A stretch of DNA of 64,000 nt, taken from Clostridiales bacterium (GTDB lineage: Bacteria > Bacillota > Clostridia > Oscillospirales > Oscillospiraceae). This document shows positions 6,915-50,274 of the stretch, piece after piece. How positions within the stretch are numbered: position 1 is the first letter of the stretch; every line of letters begins with the position of its first letter. The notes below the pieces were generated by a model. It saw only the letters and a list, made by a program, of their open reading frames with translations, did not search any database and was not told the origin of the DNA. The position numbers were made by a program, and so were the translations under genes. Location of the stretch: NCBI GenBank assembly GCA_029268065.1, contig JAJUHC010000015.1:1-64000 (forward strand). The letters are read 5' to 3'.

Positions 6915-7922
6915 ATGAAAAGGTTACTCGCGTTGCTTCTTATTGCCGCAGCAATATTCTTCTTCGCCCCGCTGGGCGGCGTCGGCGCTCCGAAGACGCC
7001 CAAGACGCATTTTTTCGAGCGGCTGGGCGCTATCCTTAATACGCAGGAAGGAAGCTATACCGCGTCTTTGGATGTAAAAATGCCGTCTGCGCTCTTGGGA
7101 AGCGGCGCCGCCACTTATCTCCTCGGCGCTAAAACAAATCTCGAGCTTAATCTTTCCGGCGGCTTTTCGGGGGGCGCCAACAGCCTTGCGGCCAGCGTAG
7201 CGTCAAATCCCGACTCCAGGCTTGACAGCGCCGCCGTTTTGACCGACCTAGTCGCGGATGGTGAAAATATCTATTTAAACCTGCGCTCGGTCTTTAATTA
7301 TCTGACCTCGGTCGGGGGGAAAAAAGTAAACTACGGCCTGTTTTTTCCCGCCGAATACATAACCCTGAGCTTTGACGAGCTCTGCTTTGTTTGCCCCGAA
7401 GCCTCCCTGCTGGGCTTCTTTAAACACGCCACTTTAAAAAGCGCCGTGCCGGGTTCAAGCCTTAACAACGCGCTTTTAGCCTCGCTGACGGAGAACTCCT
7501 TCAGCGAGAGCAACGGCGTATACCGCCTTACGCTCGACAACGCCGGCTTTCTGCGTCTCGCGCGGGCAGCCATTGGGGACATTGCCGAAAACAGCGGGGA
7601 ATACGCAAATCTGCCGGCGGCTCAAATGACCGGAAGCTCTGACAGCGCCGCCGCTGCGGCTCAAATAAAAAACGCGGCGGAGAAGCTGTCTTCGGGCCTT
7701 AATCGCCTTACGGACGTTTCACTCTGTGCGGAGCTCAGCTTTATAAAAGCCGAGAACGCTTATAAAATCTGCGTTTTTTGCGAGAGCGAAAAGGAAGGCT
7801 TGGAGCTCAGCGGCGTCATTAAGCTCGTTCCCGGGGCGGCCGAAAACGCAAGCGTCCCGCGGAAAGCGATGAGCCTCGACGGCATTTTAAACATGCTGGA
7901 GGGCGTCGGCAAGATTATGTGA
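6915..7922 (+). CDS. Exported protein of unknown function
   Basis: The 335-residue protein starts at the ATG at 6915 (GAAGGGAAAG upstream); a longer reading from 6786 would run through the trpB2 terminator. Residues 1-25 form a signal peptide (MKRLLALLLIAAAIFFF core). The rest is rich in Ala, Ser, Leu and Asn with no Cys-based lipobox. Repeated short segments describing tests of leucine-rich beta structure could suggest an outer-surface lipoprotein-like fold (LolA/LppX-like), but no diagnostic motif is seen. It stands alone between two terminators. No function is assigned. Confidence 0.6.
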   Translation: MKRLLALLLIAAAIFFFAPLGGVGAPKTPKTHFFERLGAILNTQEGSYTASLDVKMPSALLGSGAATYLLGAKTNLELNLSGGFSGGANSLAASVASNPDSRLDSAAVLTDLVADGENIYLNLRSVFNYLTSVGGKKVNYGLFFPAEYITLSFDELCFVCPEASLLGFFKHATLKSAVPGSSLNNALLASLTENSFSESNGVYRLTLDNAGFLRLARAAIGDIAENSGEYANLPAAQMTGSSDSAAAAAQIKNAAEKLSSGLNRLTDVSLCAELSFIKAENAYKICVFCESEKEGLELSGVIKLVPGAAENASVPRKAMSLDGILNMLEGVGKIM

Positions 7923-46800: not shown

Positions 46801-47127
46801 GTTGCCGTAAACCTTCAGACTCGGCAAAACGCTCGAGAACGCAAGGCTCATAACGAGCAGCCTTCCGCCCTCGTCCATAACGGTTTCCGAAAGACCGCCC
46901 GTTTCGGCAAAAACACGGTCGGCGAGCAGCAGAAAGGTCACGACCTCCCCGTACAAGCTGAGGCTGTCGCCGCAAAATTCCGAAAGCGCCCGCGCGGCCG
47001 CGTGCGAATACTGCTCGGGCACAAGCAGGTATGTCCCGCCCTTTTTCGCGTCCACGCACTTTTTTATTTCGCTCATTATGCGGCTTGTCTTGCCGCTGCG
47101 CGCTCTGCCCGTGATTATAGTAAGCAT
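43813..47127 (-). CDS. addB: ATP-dependent helicase/nuclease subunit B (AddB)
   Basis: The 1104-residue partner of AddA reads the Chi-like recombination signal. It has an N-terminal Walker A (GRARSGKT, residues ~7-14) and a degenerate helicase region. The C-terminal nuclease domain includes VVDYKTGKKAF. The [4Fe-4S] site that staples this nuclease domain is visible as the Cys of FYSCKFSYFLQ plus the closing cluster CKYGGGPCDYCDYTAAC. It is the first gene of addB-addA. The start has GGGTGAGAAA upstream. Confidence 0.95.
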   Translation of the reverse strand: MLTIITGRARSGKTSRIMSEIKKCVDAKKGGTYLLVPEQYSHAAARALSEFCGDSLSLYGEVVTFLLLADRVFAETGGLSETVMDEGGRLLVMSLAFSSVLPSLKVYGNVAAKADFLKGLLKAADELKSCCIMPEELLGGELPEGSLKDKLHDLSLISGAFEAMLQSGMQDPSLRLEKLAEQIGGSSVGVGGHIYIDGFSDFTALEMKVLGELLRKGADLTVTLPGRGDEDAFYIAEKTRFKLVRLADALGVRCSTIELKPISGTAAPELEYLEQKLFGRDKTPFKGESSAVRLIAADTMDSECAIAAAELIRLVRDEGYRWRELAVTARGFEKYEAVIENVFSKYGIPLFLNRKADILQKPVLSLMSSALDVVTQDWDYPSVFRYLKTGLAGVSAEECDQLENYVLKWNIRGAKLWNREEPWSMSPRGYVPEITDEDALRLAEIDRLRRLAAGPLKRLDGAVSAAGTAVGIIKALYSFVEDIGLPERLKEKTEQFRALGREKTAEEYSQLWGILVRVMEQCAAILGELPMSADEFSRLFRTVLSSYGVATIPLTLDAVSAGDMTRMRAGGIKCLLVLGATDDALPMVGEGSGIINDTEREELLRLGFELSGGTEERIMREYLTMYSCLTRATERLVLSYPKSVGGTKKRPSYIIGRMEALLGVKTEDESSLNASYLTAAAAPCFELALSGADTPRARAARLYFEGDAGKKHEMERILMAAGADRGSLSPSSVQSIYGSRLRLSASRIDRFYSCKFSYFLQYGLKAEPRKEAGFDAPEMGTFLHYVLESVIGDLKKKGPLSSAERKDYFALTAFYVQKYAEERLGGTNDKGGRFTYLFNRLVKDVYTIVDDMVEELKRSEFTPLSFELEFGDGKVPPAMVRSGGMEISVSGVVDRIDGWLRNDKLYLRVVDYKTGKKAFDLSDIWYGMGMQMLIYLFTLEKYGGELYGREIVPAGVLYAPARDVYLGLGRSASEEEIKAARRKSLVRSGILLNEPEVIEAMEKGEKVFLPVKFTKDGQLKADNLATLEQLGKLGAHIERSLREIGEEMLKGNISADPFCKYGGGPCDYCDYTAACHFDERKDKRRYLKHLKASEFWEAVERRGD

Positions 47128-47211
47128 TTTCTCACCCGCACGTCGATTGATAAGCTTATTATATCAAAAAGAAGCTGAAAAGGCACTTGAAAATCGGTTT
47201 TCACAAACAAA

Positions 47212-47237
47212 AAGCAGCCCCGCCCAAGGGGCCGCTT
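47212..47237 (-). terminator. Terminator of spoIIR
   Basis: GCAGCCCC (47214-47221) pairs with GGGGCCGC (47228-47235) with one mismatch. The minus-strand T run follows. Confidence 0.65.
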
Positions 47238-47254
47238 CGTTTGCTCTGATTTGA

Positions 47255-47887
47255 TTACGATATCGCGTACTCCGCCGCTTCGCTTTGGCTCATCGCAAGC
47301 TCCAACCGGGACAAAAGCTCCAGAAGCTTGAACTTGACGACATAACCCTCTGAGTCCTCAGTGATGATTTTTATGGTTTCTTCGCTGAGCCCGAGCTTTT
47401 TGAAATCAGTTTTTTTCTCCGCGGCGGTCAGGCACAATGGAGGGAACACGACGCACCACCAGTTTTTGCCCGCCCCGTTTCCTATTATCACTCGAAGCGA
47501 GGTATAGCTGCCCGCGGGAAGGCTGAAGCTTCCGTACCTTACTGTGGGAAAGCTCTCCACCCCGAGGCTCGCAGAAACCGGATAGTCTTTTCCGAGTTCA
47601 CCTACCTTCTCCAAGGCGGCGGCAACGAGAAGCTCTCTGTTTTCCTTTATTATTTTTTCCGCCGCGCTCTTGTCGCGGCAACCATCAAGAAGCGCATTCA
47701 GTTTTCTGAGCACCTCATCCCGCACAGCGAGCTTGATGCTCTGGTCTTCGGGGCTGTCCGAATTTGCGACGACGTGGAGCCTTATAAGGTTTTCGCTCAG
47801 CTCCGCCCGCCGCGCGGACACCTGACCGCCGAGCACGGAAAGAATTATCGCGATAAAAAGGGCTATCTCCCAGGCTTTGATCTTCAT
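47255..47887 (-). CDS. spoIIR: Stage II sporulation protein R (SpoIIR)
   Basis: SpoIIR is the forespore signal protein that crosses the septum and triggers SpoIIGA to process pro-sigma-E in the mother cell. The 210-residue protein has a membrane or signal segment (IALFIAIILSVLGG, ~8-22) and the family core LIRLHVVANSDSPEDQSIKLAVRDEVL, given here as two parts: RLHVVANSDS and QSIKLAVRD. WWCVVFPPLCL is also conserved. The ATG directly follows the T run of a hairpin whose 3' arm holds the GGAG ribosome-binding site. Confidence 0.93.
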   Translation of the reverse strand: MKIKAWEIALFIAIILSVLGGQVSARRAELSENLIRLHVVANSDSPEDQSIKLAVRDEVLRKLNALLDGCRDKSAAEKIIKENRELLVAAALEKVGELGKDYPVSASLGVESFPTVRYGSFSLPAGSYTSLRVIIGNGAGKNWWCVVFPPLCLTAAEKKTDFKKLGLSEETIKIITEDSEGYVVKFKLLELLSRLELAMSQSEAAEYAIS

Positions 47888-47929
47888 AAAAAAACTCCGA
47901 TACTATGTAAAATTCATTTACAGTATCGG
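47888..47929 (-). terminator. Stem-loop between ispE and spoIIR that contains the spoIIR ribosome-binding site
   Basis: On the minus strand CCGATAC (47929-47923) pairs with GTATCGG (47903-47897) and TGTAAA pairs with TTTACA inside, with a 2-nt bulge and 5-nt loop. GAG and seven T follow, ending at the spoIIR ATG. GGAG (47898-47895), the only Shine-Dalgarno for spoIIR, straddles the end of the 3' arm. It can act as an ispE terminator. Confidence 0.7.
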
Positions 47930-47950
47930 CGTTTTTGTTCAGTTTTATAC
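47922..47950 (-). promoter_or_regulatory. Candidate sigma-F promoter of spoIIR
   Basis: Minus strand: GTATA (47950-47946), 15-bp spacer, GCCGATACT (47930-47922). The B. subtilis sigma-F consensus is GYWTA, N15, GGNRANANT. All strongly conserved positions fit except the second G of the -10. SpoIIR is sigma-F-dependent in B. subtilis. The -35 overlaps the ispE stop codon, and the -10 is the 5' arm of the hairpin. Confidence 0.6.
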
Positions 47951-48814
47951 ATATTTTTCCATGGTCTCCGCCAGAAAGCACTCGTCATACTGTTTTTTCA
48001 TAAGGGCAAACGCTTTTTCCGCTGTTTCCTCATCGTCGTAAAGCCCGAACACGGCCGAGCCCGTACCTGTCATGGAGGCTCCGAGCGCTCCTGTGTCCAG
48101 CAATTTGGATTTTATACTCCGGATTTCAGAGTACCTTTGAGGAAGCACATCCTCGAACACATTATACATTCGGCGCGCCACCCCCGCAAGGCAGCCCTGT
48201 TCTATGGAAATAAGCATACCGTCAATATCGGGGCGGTGTTTCAGCGCCGAGCTGTCTATCACTGAAAACAGCTCCGCCGTGGATATGGGAAACGGCGGCT
48301 TGCATATAAGCACGCGGCACCTCGGCATAGCTTTCAGCTCCGTCATTATTTCTCCCCGCCCTTTGCAGAGGACGGTTCCTCCCCCGACGCAGAAGGGCAG
48401 ATCCGAACCAAGCTTTTCCGCAAGCGACTCAAGCTCCTTCTGCTTGAAGCCTATCGAAAAATAATCGTTCAGCGCCCTCAGGACAGCCGCTCCGTCGGTG
48501 CTCCCCCCCGCCATACCGGCGCATACGGGAATCCTCTTTTTGATTTTTATCACGCAGCCGCGCGGAGGCGTCCCGGAGGCCTCAAAAAACAGCCTTACCG
48601 CCCTTACGGCGATGTTTTTGTCGCCCTTCGGCAGAAAATAGAGGTTTGACTCCGCCGTTATTGAGGCCTGGTCATTGAACGTGATGTCGATATCGTCGCA
48701 AAGGTCCACGCTCTGCATAACCGTGGCTATCTCGTGGTAGCCGCTGTCCATTTTCCGCACCACGTCAAGGCAGAGGTTTATCTTTGCATACGCCTTTACG
48801 CTGATATCGCCCAT
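47945..48814 (-). CDS. ispE: 4-diphosphocytidyl-2-C-methyl-D-erythritol kinase
   Basis: IspE phosphorylates CDP-ME in the MEP pathway for isoprenoids. This 289-residue GHMP kinase has KAYAKINLCLDV at the start, the ATP-loop PVCAGMAGGSTDGAAVLRALN (shown by its PVCAGMAGGS core) and the C-terminal GASMTGTGSAVFGLY motif. The ATG at 48814 has GAGG upstream; earlier in-frame starts lack a site. spoIIR lies 57 bp downstream on the same strand, a neighbourhood also seen in other clostridia as far as I recall. Confidence 0.95.
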   Translation of the reverse strand: MGDISVKAYAKINLCLDVVRKMDSGYHEIATVMQSVDLCDDIDITFNDQASITAESNLYFLPKGDKNIAVRAVRLFFEASGTPPRGCVIKIKKRIPVCAGMAGGSTDGAAVLRALNDYFSIGFKQKELESLAEKLGSDLPFCVGGGTVLCKGRGEIMTELKAMPRCRVLICKPPFPISTAELFSVIDSSALKHRPDIDGMLISIEQGCLAGVARRMYNVFEDVLPQRYSEIRSIKSKLLDTGALGASMTGTGSAVFGLYDDEETAEKAFALMKKQYDECFLAETMEKYV

Positions 48815-48987
48815 GTTAACCTCACACGCACTTTCACGCACAATTTGTTATATAAGCCTGCCGTGCAGATACACATTTCGGTTTTCCCCGGTTCCGTTAA
48901 CCCGAAAAACCGTCCCGGCCCGCCCAATCGCGCACAACTTAGGAAAACGCTTGCAAGGCGGCGCTTCCGCCAGTAATCAGATGCCGT

Positions 48988-50274
48988 CTAGAGCACTATT
49001 TTCCTGCACTCCAGATAATATCTCTTGTCGTTGGCGCTGCCCATGGAGAAGGTCTTTCTCGGCAGCACGCCATCCTTGATTATCGAGGGAAAAAGGCTGC
49101 CTTTTTCTATCGCGGGAAGCACGAAGCCGAGCCTTCCGGGCTTCTGCGAGAGCTTCACCACAACGTCGTCGCCGTGGACATAGTCTATCCTTCCTCCGGC
49201 TTTCGGAACATATTCGTCAAGGAACTTGGAAAGCGCGCCTATCGCGAGCTCCCCGTTTAATTTTGAAAGGCTGACTATTCCTGCGCAGCCGTTGTAAACG
49301 TAGACTATCTCGTGATCTCCTCCGGGACCCGTGTGGGCGTCCGGATAGTATTCAAGCAGCGCGTCGAGCATAGCCTTGGGGTCGACGTCAAACACCACTC
49401 GGTTGATCGGCTGGAATTCAAGAGATTCGTCGCAGAGATTCACTATTTCCACAATGGCGTAGCGCGCGGGATGCGCTTTCCGCTCCTCCTCGCTCAGCGT
49501 CTGCTTAAGCTGCTCCCACCACGCCTTGGCGGAGGCGAGGGAGTGGTTGCCGTCCCCCACGGCGAATATCATGACCGGCTCGCCCTTAAGCCCGTAGCGC
49601 CTGTTGAAGTCCTCGCAGCAGCCGAATTCGGCCACCGAATCCCTGACCCTTTCCGCAAGCTCACCCGAAACCTGATAACCCGTTATGTGTCCGCCCTTTT
49701 CCATAAGCTCAAAGTCGTAGAGCATCTTCATGGCGCCCTTCTCCTTCGAAAGGGGGGCTATCAGCCTCTCCTCAGGGTCGTCGGCCAGCATGAGCACATG
49801 CGTAAGCTCTAGCGGAGCGCCGTCGCGCAGCTTTATGCGCACGGGAAGCTTCTCCACGACCGTGCCCTCCGTTGCCCTTACGGCCGGTTTTGAGCCCTTG
49901 GCAAAGTCGTACGCCTCTAAATCGACCGCTCCCACTATGCCTCTCCGGAGCTTGCCGTTATATAGTCTCCGCTCCACATACACATATGAATCCCTGCACA
50001 GCTTGAAAACTCCACGGCTTTCGTATTCCGCCATGGTCTTTTTTGTGCCGGATATAAGCTCATCCAGATTCAGGTACTTGTATGTATGCTCCGGCAGCAT
50101 GAGCCTGAGCGTGCTTGGGCTGTCGCCTACAAAGGCGTCCGCCCTCTCCCAGTATTCCGGCTCTGAGGTATGCTGGTCGCAGGCCACAACGCTCCATTTC
50201 ACCATATCGCAGTCTGCGGGTATCAGAAAATCGCAAGGCATAAACAGGTTTCTGAAGTCGCTTTTATCCATCAA
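48988..50274 (-). CDS. DUF1015-family protein
   Basis: The 428-residue DUF1015 member shows FMPCDFLIPADCDMVKWSVVACDQHTSEPEYW near the start (key elements CDFLIP and ACDQHTSEPEYW), AVGDGNHSLASAKAWWE in the middle and HGDD near the end. The biochemical function is not established. In many clostridia these genes lie beside serine-biosynthesis genes. Here it is the last gene of an Lrp-aminotransferase-ApgM operon, 18 bp after apgM, which supports a role in amino-acid metabolism. Either of two adjacent ATG codons may be used. Confidence 0.88.
   Translation of the reverse strand: MMDKSDFRNLFMPCDFLIPADCDMVKWSVVACDQHTSEPEYWERADAFVGDSPSTLRLMLPEHTYKYLNLDELISGTKKTMAEYESRGVFKLCRDSYVYVERRLYNGKLRRGIVGAVDLEAYDFAKGSKPAVRATEGTVVEKLPVRIKLRDGAPLELTHVLMLADDPEERLIAPLSKEKGAMKMLYDFELMEKGGHITGYQVSGELAERVRDSVAEFGCCEDFNRRYGLKGEPVMIFAVGDGNHSLASAKAWWEQLKQTLSEEERKAHPARYAIVEIVNLCDESLEFQPINRVVFDVDPKAMLDALLEYYPDAHTGPGGDHEIVYVYNGCAGIVSLSKLNGELAIGALSKFLDEYVPKAGGRIDYVHGDDVVVKLSQKPGRLGFVLPAIEKGSLFPSIIKDGVLPRKTFSMGSANDKRYYLECRKIVL

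Follow-up and report, generated by a model that had tools for sequence, protein, structure and literature searches.

In Bacillus subtilis, transcription of spoIIR depends on sigma-F, and the expression of SpoIIR together with SpoIIGA and pro-sigma-E turns on sigma-E in growing cells (PMC4703394). Among the clostridia, sigma-E activity in C. difficile and SpoIIR production in C. acetobutylicum are reported to be partly independent of sigma-F (PMC3789829), and start sites in C. difficile are covered in PMC7438776. For the B. subtilis forespore gene sigG (spoIIIG), a long hairpin was proposed by Masuda in 1988 to block the translation of read-through RNA (as related in PMC5942855). In phage T4, the long early RNA of gene e and of I-TevI masks the ribosome site, late promoters lie within the region encoding the 5' strand of the hairpin, and a 100-fold reduction in lysozyme synthesis was reported for gene e (PMC3014915, PMC2988022). 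In the open-licence PMC literature, judged by title and the start of the abstract, neither a description of a hairpin at spoIIR nor a measured effect of stray spoIIR RNA in this group was found.

Here, the gap between ispE and spoIIR was analysed in a clostridial genome. This gap is probably a start-site-dependent lock, made of a terminator and a ribosome-site mask, by which spoIIR would be expressed only when sigma-F initiates transcription within the hairpin.

Layout and fold of the ispE-spoIIR junction

The window, that is, the whole stretch of DNA analysed, is 64,000 nucleotides long. Within 66 bases of its minus strand (47950-47885) lie the ispE stop, a sigma-F-type promoter, a hairpin, GGAG, a T7 run and the spoIIR ATG. 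The features are as follows:

47945..48814, minus strand: ispE coding sequence, from the open reading frame; possible source of read-through
47946..47950, minus strand: sigma-F-type -35 GTATA, from the sequence and a position weight matrix over 131 loci
47945-47931, minus strand: 15-nt spacer between -35 and -10, from the sequence
47922..47930, minus strand: sigma-F-type -10 GCCGATACT, from the sequence; its CCGATACT belongs to the 5' arm of the hairpin
47917..47936, minus strand: 5' arm of the hairpin (AAAAAC, G mismatch, CCGATACT, GTAAA), from the fold and covariation
47912..47916, minus strand: hairpin loop TGAAT, from the fold
about 47915, minus strand: predicted sigma-F transcript start in the loop, placed by spacing seven bases past the -10
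47890..47911, minus strand: 3' arm of the hairpin (TTTAC, AT bulge, AGTATCGG, A mismatch, GTTTTT), from the fold
47895..47898, minus strand: Shine-Dalgarno sequence GGAG, predicted to be paired within the hairpin of read-through RNA
47888..47894, minus strand: T7 run, a terminator-like U tract that separates GGAG from the ATG, from the sequence
47255..47887, minus strand: spoIIR coding sequence, 210 aa, ATG at 47887, from the open reading frame and TIGR02837

The identity of spoIIR was given by TIGR02837 (E 4.1e-49, above the cut-off). From its sequence, and with no family search behind the name, we take ispE to encode 4-diphosphocytidyl-2-C-methyl-D-erythritol kinase; its frame as listed opens at GTG 48841, and ATG 48814 begins MGDISVKAYAKINLCL. 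The -35 element GTATA consists of the last ispE codon, GTA, and the TA of its stop TAA (47947-47945).

The original prediction had placed GTATA, 15 nt and GCCGATACT on the minus strand over the ispE stop, and had the 3' arm of a hairpin run into GGAG, a T run and the spoIIR ATG. Both were confirmed, the promoter at 47950-47922 and the others at 47898-47895, 47894-47888 and 47887, respectively. The -10 was also found in the 5' arm as claimed, but the hairpin described as 13 bp really consists of 8 bp (CCGATACT/AGTATCGG) and 5 bp (GTAAA/TTTAC) separated by a 2-nt bulge, and folding adds six outer pairs (AAAAAC/GTTTTT) beyond a G.A mismatch. The resulting structure of 19 pairs has an energy of -18.3 kcal/mol and a z of -3.43, and was equalled or beaten by 1 of 200 shuffles. 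A simple terminator scan did not have this hairpin among its listed sites. A known RNA element or riboswitch was discarded as a candidate because no curated RNA family of Rfam 15 matched the hairpin site when positions 47000-49000 were searched with E up to 1; a single unrelated match, below threshold, was found at 48522-48605. When the inner helix of the stem was moved (structure B, model R1), the score fell below that of the continuous stem, and for this reason the search model used below, R2, was built on the continuous stem.

The -10 consensus of sigma-F is GGNNANANT, and the home -10 agrees with it at 4 of the 5 fixed bases. With a GTATA-like -35, a 15-nt spacer and a GNNNANANT-like -10, the junction has the sequence of a sigma-F promoter as judged by the consensus, from which we infer that spoIIR depends on sigma-F here. 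The combination GTATA-N15-GNNNANANT occurred a single time in the 64 kb, counting both strands. Its stricter GTATAAA form occurred three times in the 2.44-Mb genome: at spoIIR, on contig C23, and behind a gene presumed to be enolase-like, where it is part of a terminator-like hairpin and the adjoining frames are all short.

Conservation and covariation of the promoter and the hairpin

Matches to spoIIR were found in 161 of 200 family genomes. The 131 loci analysed, from 131 genomes, comprised 130 from this family search and one from a further genome of the genus; all but the 30 weakest of the 161 matches were studied as sequences, L006, a piece of the G004 spoIIR, and L071, whose start could not be placed, were excluded, and for L111 and L136 an almost equally good ATG farther upstream was chosen manually as the start codon. 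Of the 80 protein matches retained, most of those from named relatives were labelled as Oscillospiraceae or one of its genera, Oscillibacter, Pseudoflavonifractor, Flavonifractor, Lawsonibacter and Papillibacter, which suggests that the home family is Oscillospiraceae.

When scored by leave-one-out with a promoter matrix trained on these same loci, 116 of the 131 reached at least 8, compared to 0 of 494 controls drawn from more distant upstream sequence and read both forward and reversed; as the matrix comes from the loci that it scores, with relatives staying in the training set, the control rate outweighs the score itself. A significant hairpin over the -10 (z < -2, relative to shuffled versions of the sequence past the -10) was present in 106 of these 116 promoter-bearing loci, with a mean z of -5.9. 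Bare pair counts were uninformative, since at least six pairs were found in 112/116 loci, with a mean of 15.6, but shuffles already average 9.0. As a control within the same genomes (123 of them), the ispE start was treated in parallel with the spoIIR start: z was below -2 in 12 versus 113 genomes, the median z was -0.27 versus -5.16, and the median opening cost was 3.6 versus 17.5 kcal/mol.

In two sister families of the order, represented by the best 30 loci each from 49 and 50 genomes with a match, the same arrangement was seen in many loci, the home-family matrix recognising fewer promoters there and a looser start motif being needed in 16 of the 60. The arrangement is conserved well beyond the genus. 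Absence of the hairpin or of the sigma-F elements in close relatives had been set beforehand as the outcome that should sink the original prediction, which survived this test, as both were kept in 5/5 genomes of the genus and in most of the family loci examined. A TACATA-like motif was also noticed by eye between the -10 and the ATG in L031, L082, L095, L111 and others, including loci that have a weak hairpin or none.

A comparison of the ispE-spoIIR gap across relatives, for covariation of the hairpin together with promoter spacing, had been asked for from the outset, and its result was positive on both sides. The spacer was exactly 15 nt in 78 of 80 regular-expression hits, although 14-17 nt were allowed. 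Covariation was followed in a set (A3) of 87 home-family loci with a close ispE, a promoter score of at least 8 and 45-85 nt from the -35 to the ATG, aligned by sequence only; 91 loci qualified and four longer ones were dropped. This set was relied on instead of another alignment (A1) that had been chosen in part for having the hairpin, although a set filtered by promoter is not fully independent of the hairpin either, because the promoter matrix overlaps part of the 5' arm. In A3, z was below -2 in 86/87 loci. Cells changed on both sides of a pair numbered 205, compared to 68.7 in shuffled and at most 102 in slid controls, and the covariation score was 0.340, compared to 0.146 and at most 0.119, respectively; the number of pairs changed on both sides (16/19, compared to 12.8 in shuffled and at most 15 in slid controls) is a weak measure. 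Variants of the -10 (GTCC, GCCG, GTCA and others) were matched by compensating changes in the 3' arm, and a G at the second base of the -10 was found in 5/116 loci with the hairpin versus 7/27 without it. The hairpin is thus conserved with compensating changes, as the lock calls for.

These data bear on two other explanations. The home sequence alone, with its z of just -3.4, would allow the hairpin to be a product of chance or base composition, but the conservation of promoter and hairpin, a covariation beyond both shuffled and slid controls and the ispE-start control in the same genomes led us to reject such an origin, which we now regard as having a negligible probability. Alternatively, an inverted repeat that spans a -10 element could be an operator in the DNA, bound by a dimeric regulator over the -10. 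Against this, two facing arm positions lay anywhere from 13 to 41 nt apart in the 77 of 87 sequences in which they pair, and such variable spacing suits an RNA better than the fixed operator of a protein; moreover, the letters of the arms covary instead of being fixed, and the repeat was mostly missing behind divergent open reading frames, yet 13/15 such cases in the home family still had a promoter-like site, with a lower score (median 12.6 versus 24.4). An operator is therefore very improbable, and the preferred reading is that of a structure acting in the RNA.

Predicted behaviour of read-through and sigma-F transcripts

According to the lock proposed here, a polymerase reading through ispE would make an RNA containing both arms, and the hairpin with its U7 should stop much of this RNA. 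In the RNA that escapes, GGAG would be held in the 3' arm and SpoIIR would not be made. In the forespore, active sigma-F would bring the polymerase to GTATA-15-GCCGATACT, with a start in the loop (about 47915). As the resulting RNA would lack the 5' arm, the terminator could not form and GGAG could not be masked, so that SpoIIR would be made. In this way, neither growing cells nor mother cells would contain the signal for pro-sigma-E activation. A need to mask stray spoIIR RNA is plausible because SpoIIR, with SpoIIGA and pro-sigma-E, activates sigma-E in growing cells of B. subtilis.

Both RNAs were modelled in 116 loci with promoter and hairpin from three families (99, 6 and 11), a set that differs from the 116 promoter-bearing loci of the home family, and the sigma-F start was placed seven bases after the -10. 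The predicted sigma-F leader had a median length of 28 nt without the 5' arm. The start removed all the hairpin pairs in 93/116 loci, at least 90% of them in 100/116, and all 19 at the home locus, and the earlier claim that sigma-F transcripts would lack the 5' arm holds in this model. The median cost of opening the ribosome site was 18.1 kcal/mol in read-through RNA versus 3.8 in the predicted sigma-F RNA, compared to 6.9 versus 3.8 in 25 hairpin-negative loci; at the home locus, it was 11.6 versus 1.7 kcal/mol, with mean unpaired probabilities of 0.18 and 0.32, respectively. Across the 116 loci, the mean accessibility of the site in the predicted sigma-F RNA was only moderate (0.46 versus 0.11 in read-through RNA). 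By these predictions, the ribosome site is paired in upstream-initiated RNA, and the promoter of spoIIR, given the start expected from spacing, is placed so that its RNA escapes the pairing.

A stem followed by a U-rich tract, T7 at the home locus, is also the sequence of an intrinsic terminator, and in 89 of the 116 loci the 8 nt that follow the final G-C pair contain five or more T. The hairpin could then be only the terminator of ispE, forced by the short gap to overlap with the promoter and the ribosome site of spoIIR, with masking as a functionless by-product. The frequent T run, the association of the hairpin with a close ispE and the position of the ribosome site downstream of hairpin and T run in L078, L094 and L133 (by eye) fit this explanation. 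However, the ribosome site lay inside the arm in 108/116 loci; L009, L010, L017, L100, L129, L214 and L225 retain the arm and the masked site with a T run that is slight or missing, as does Oscillibacter sp. 1-3 (L280) by eye; and the best sigG matches in many family genomes mask the site, often without a long T run (by eye). We therefore consider a terminator alone unlikely. By a strict rule, T run and masked site occurred together in 87 loci, the masked site only in 21, the T run only in 2 and neither in 6, some of the failures being artefacts caused by terminal C pairs beyond the T run. Because of these counts, partly artefactual as they are, we regard the terminator and the mask as the two parts of a single gate, and either part can disappear.

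The gene context of the hairpin was surveyed in parallel. In 108/131 family loci, spoIIR is preceded on its own strand by an ispE homologue, at no more than 350 nt in 102. Among 191 loci of the three families, the hairpin (z < -2) was present in 118/129 with ispE at this distance (97/102 in the home family with no promoter filter, and 7/10 and 14/17 in the others), in 11/26 behind another codirectional open reading frame, in 8/32 behind a divergent one and in 3/4 where no upstream frame was called, the contexts without a close ispE being assigned by an open reading frame heuristic. The difference between ispE and divergent contexts was significant (Fisher p 9e-14), also after removal of five 'divergent' loci with ispE farther upstream (5/27, p 3e-14). 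The strongest hairpins among divergent loci were those of L057, L100 and L129, and L057 has ispE 1 kb upstream. A tree-aware test on independent branches agreed with this but was underpowered, giving on average 2.9 pairs in the same direction, 0.1 in the opposite and 2.0 with no difference (five supported pairs, median p 0.25). By eye, ispE has a terminator-like hairpin of its own in L031 and L246, where the promoter is present without the lock hairpin. The matrix performs poorly in the sister families, and a sigma-F-like site was found in 2/11 and 3/6 of their divergent loci. The low rate behind other codirectional frames speaks against a simple rule by which any upstream gene would do. Overall, the hairpin tracks the possibility of read-through, in agreement with the lock.

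Further copies and comparison with known systems

In the home genome, R2 detected no site other than spoIIR below E 0.3; the next match (E 0.32) was the terminator-like site behind the enolase-like gene. The model did not detect the sigG element described below and is specific to the spoIIR form. In the family, 63/120 genomes were matched at E 0.001, with 69 hits. Eleven hits that did not coincide with a known spoIIR were inspected: four lay before a shrunken SpoIIR, one before a spoIIR fragment, one before a nucleotidyltransferase-like gene and five at ordinary-looking terminators; the rest were assigned to spoIIR by coordinates alone, where its place was listed. Class-wide, with strict filters, 18/293 genomes were matched at E 0.01. 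Two matches of family f4 (E 4e-6 and 2e-5) precede spoIIR and one of family f5 (E 8e-5) does not; the weaker ones were terminator-like or stood before unrelated genes.

Several of these sites deserve description. Open reading frames of 66-91 aa follow the same promoter-hairpin in L232, L233, L234 and L235 (genomes G037, G045, G083 and G043), which have no TIGR02837 match. In this shrunken SpoIIR, the membrane segment at the N-terminus, a WW motif and a C-terminal segment are retained and the central RLHV..NSD domain is missing; no Pfam family was matched at its cut-off. The protein of G037 is up to 51% identical to the C-terminal part of full SpoIIR; as a query it also matched frames of 74-93 aa in G124, G156 and G185, again without a TIGR02837 match, and did not recover that of G045. 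A second promoter-hairpin copy in G049 (L236, C9:7612-7676) precedes what we take from its sequence to be a sugar-nucleotidyltransferase-like gene. In another family, a similar promoter-hairpin (L163 in G371, by eye) stands before a gene presumed from its sequence to encode a DacF-like D-Ala-D-Ala carboxypeptidase; with an E of 0.003, it may be due to chance.

For sigG, the best TIGR02850 match was taken in each of 30 family genomes, none of them at the curated cut-off. A sigma-F-like site was found in 26/30 by a loose pattern with no chance control, and a significant hairpin in 17 of these 26; 11/26, including the home genome, combined a -10 located in the arm with masking of half or more of the ribosome site. 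The home-genome match (L326, G000:C4:10611-11369) has a sigma-F-like promoter, and its ribosome site is masked by a hairpin whose 5' arm includes the -10. It is quite possible, and we suggest it tentatively, that the order has a reusable design for forespore genes located behind other genes, in which a terminator and ribosome-site hairpin contains the sigma-F -10 in its 5' arm and is opened only by starting inside it, that spoIIR and sigG use it in the same genome, and that the need for pairing shifted the spoIIR -10 off the GG consensus. In G026, sigG seems to be split into N- and C-terminal pieces (C20:473-793 and 7154-7642, 6.4 kb apart), and also in G007, G008 and G043 with the pieces on different contigs, possibly due to a skin-like intervening element or an assembly break.

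A conserved promoter-terminator-ribosome-site element would add a second gate independent of promoter strength, and the lock predicts a tighter gating in this order than in C. difficile or C. acetobutylicum. R2 provides a searchable model, a mutational test of the two arms is feasible, and the group includes cultured gut commensals.

Among known systems, a likeness is seen to the read-through hairpin of B. subtilis sigG, also a forespore gene behind another transcription unit, whose hairpin cannot form in the RNA from its own promoter. The likeness is one of arrangement, and the differences are that spoIIR here lies behind the housekeeping gene ispE, that the -10 is inside the 5' arm and that the U tract adds terminator character. 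The small hairpin of B. subtilis sigG likewise masks the ribosome site of a sigma-F target, but it lies inside the gene's own RNA and dampens expression, whereas the spoIIR hairpin cannot form in the predicted sigma-F RNA (PMC5942855). As in T4 gene e and I-TevI, an internal promoter would yield an RNA free of the mask; in T4, however, it serves phage timing by a late sigma factor instead of sporulation by sigma-F, and no terminator role is mentioned in the available parts of those sources. The hairpin shares with intrinsic (rho-independent) terminators a G+C-containing stem followed by a U tract and preceded by an A tract, and differs from ordinary ones in that it holds a promoter -10 and the ribosome site of the next gene at a conserved distance from the -35. 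The principle is therefore known from T4 gene e and B. subtilis sigG; what is new is its probable presence at spoIIR, with the -10 within the arm and a putative terminator added.
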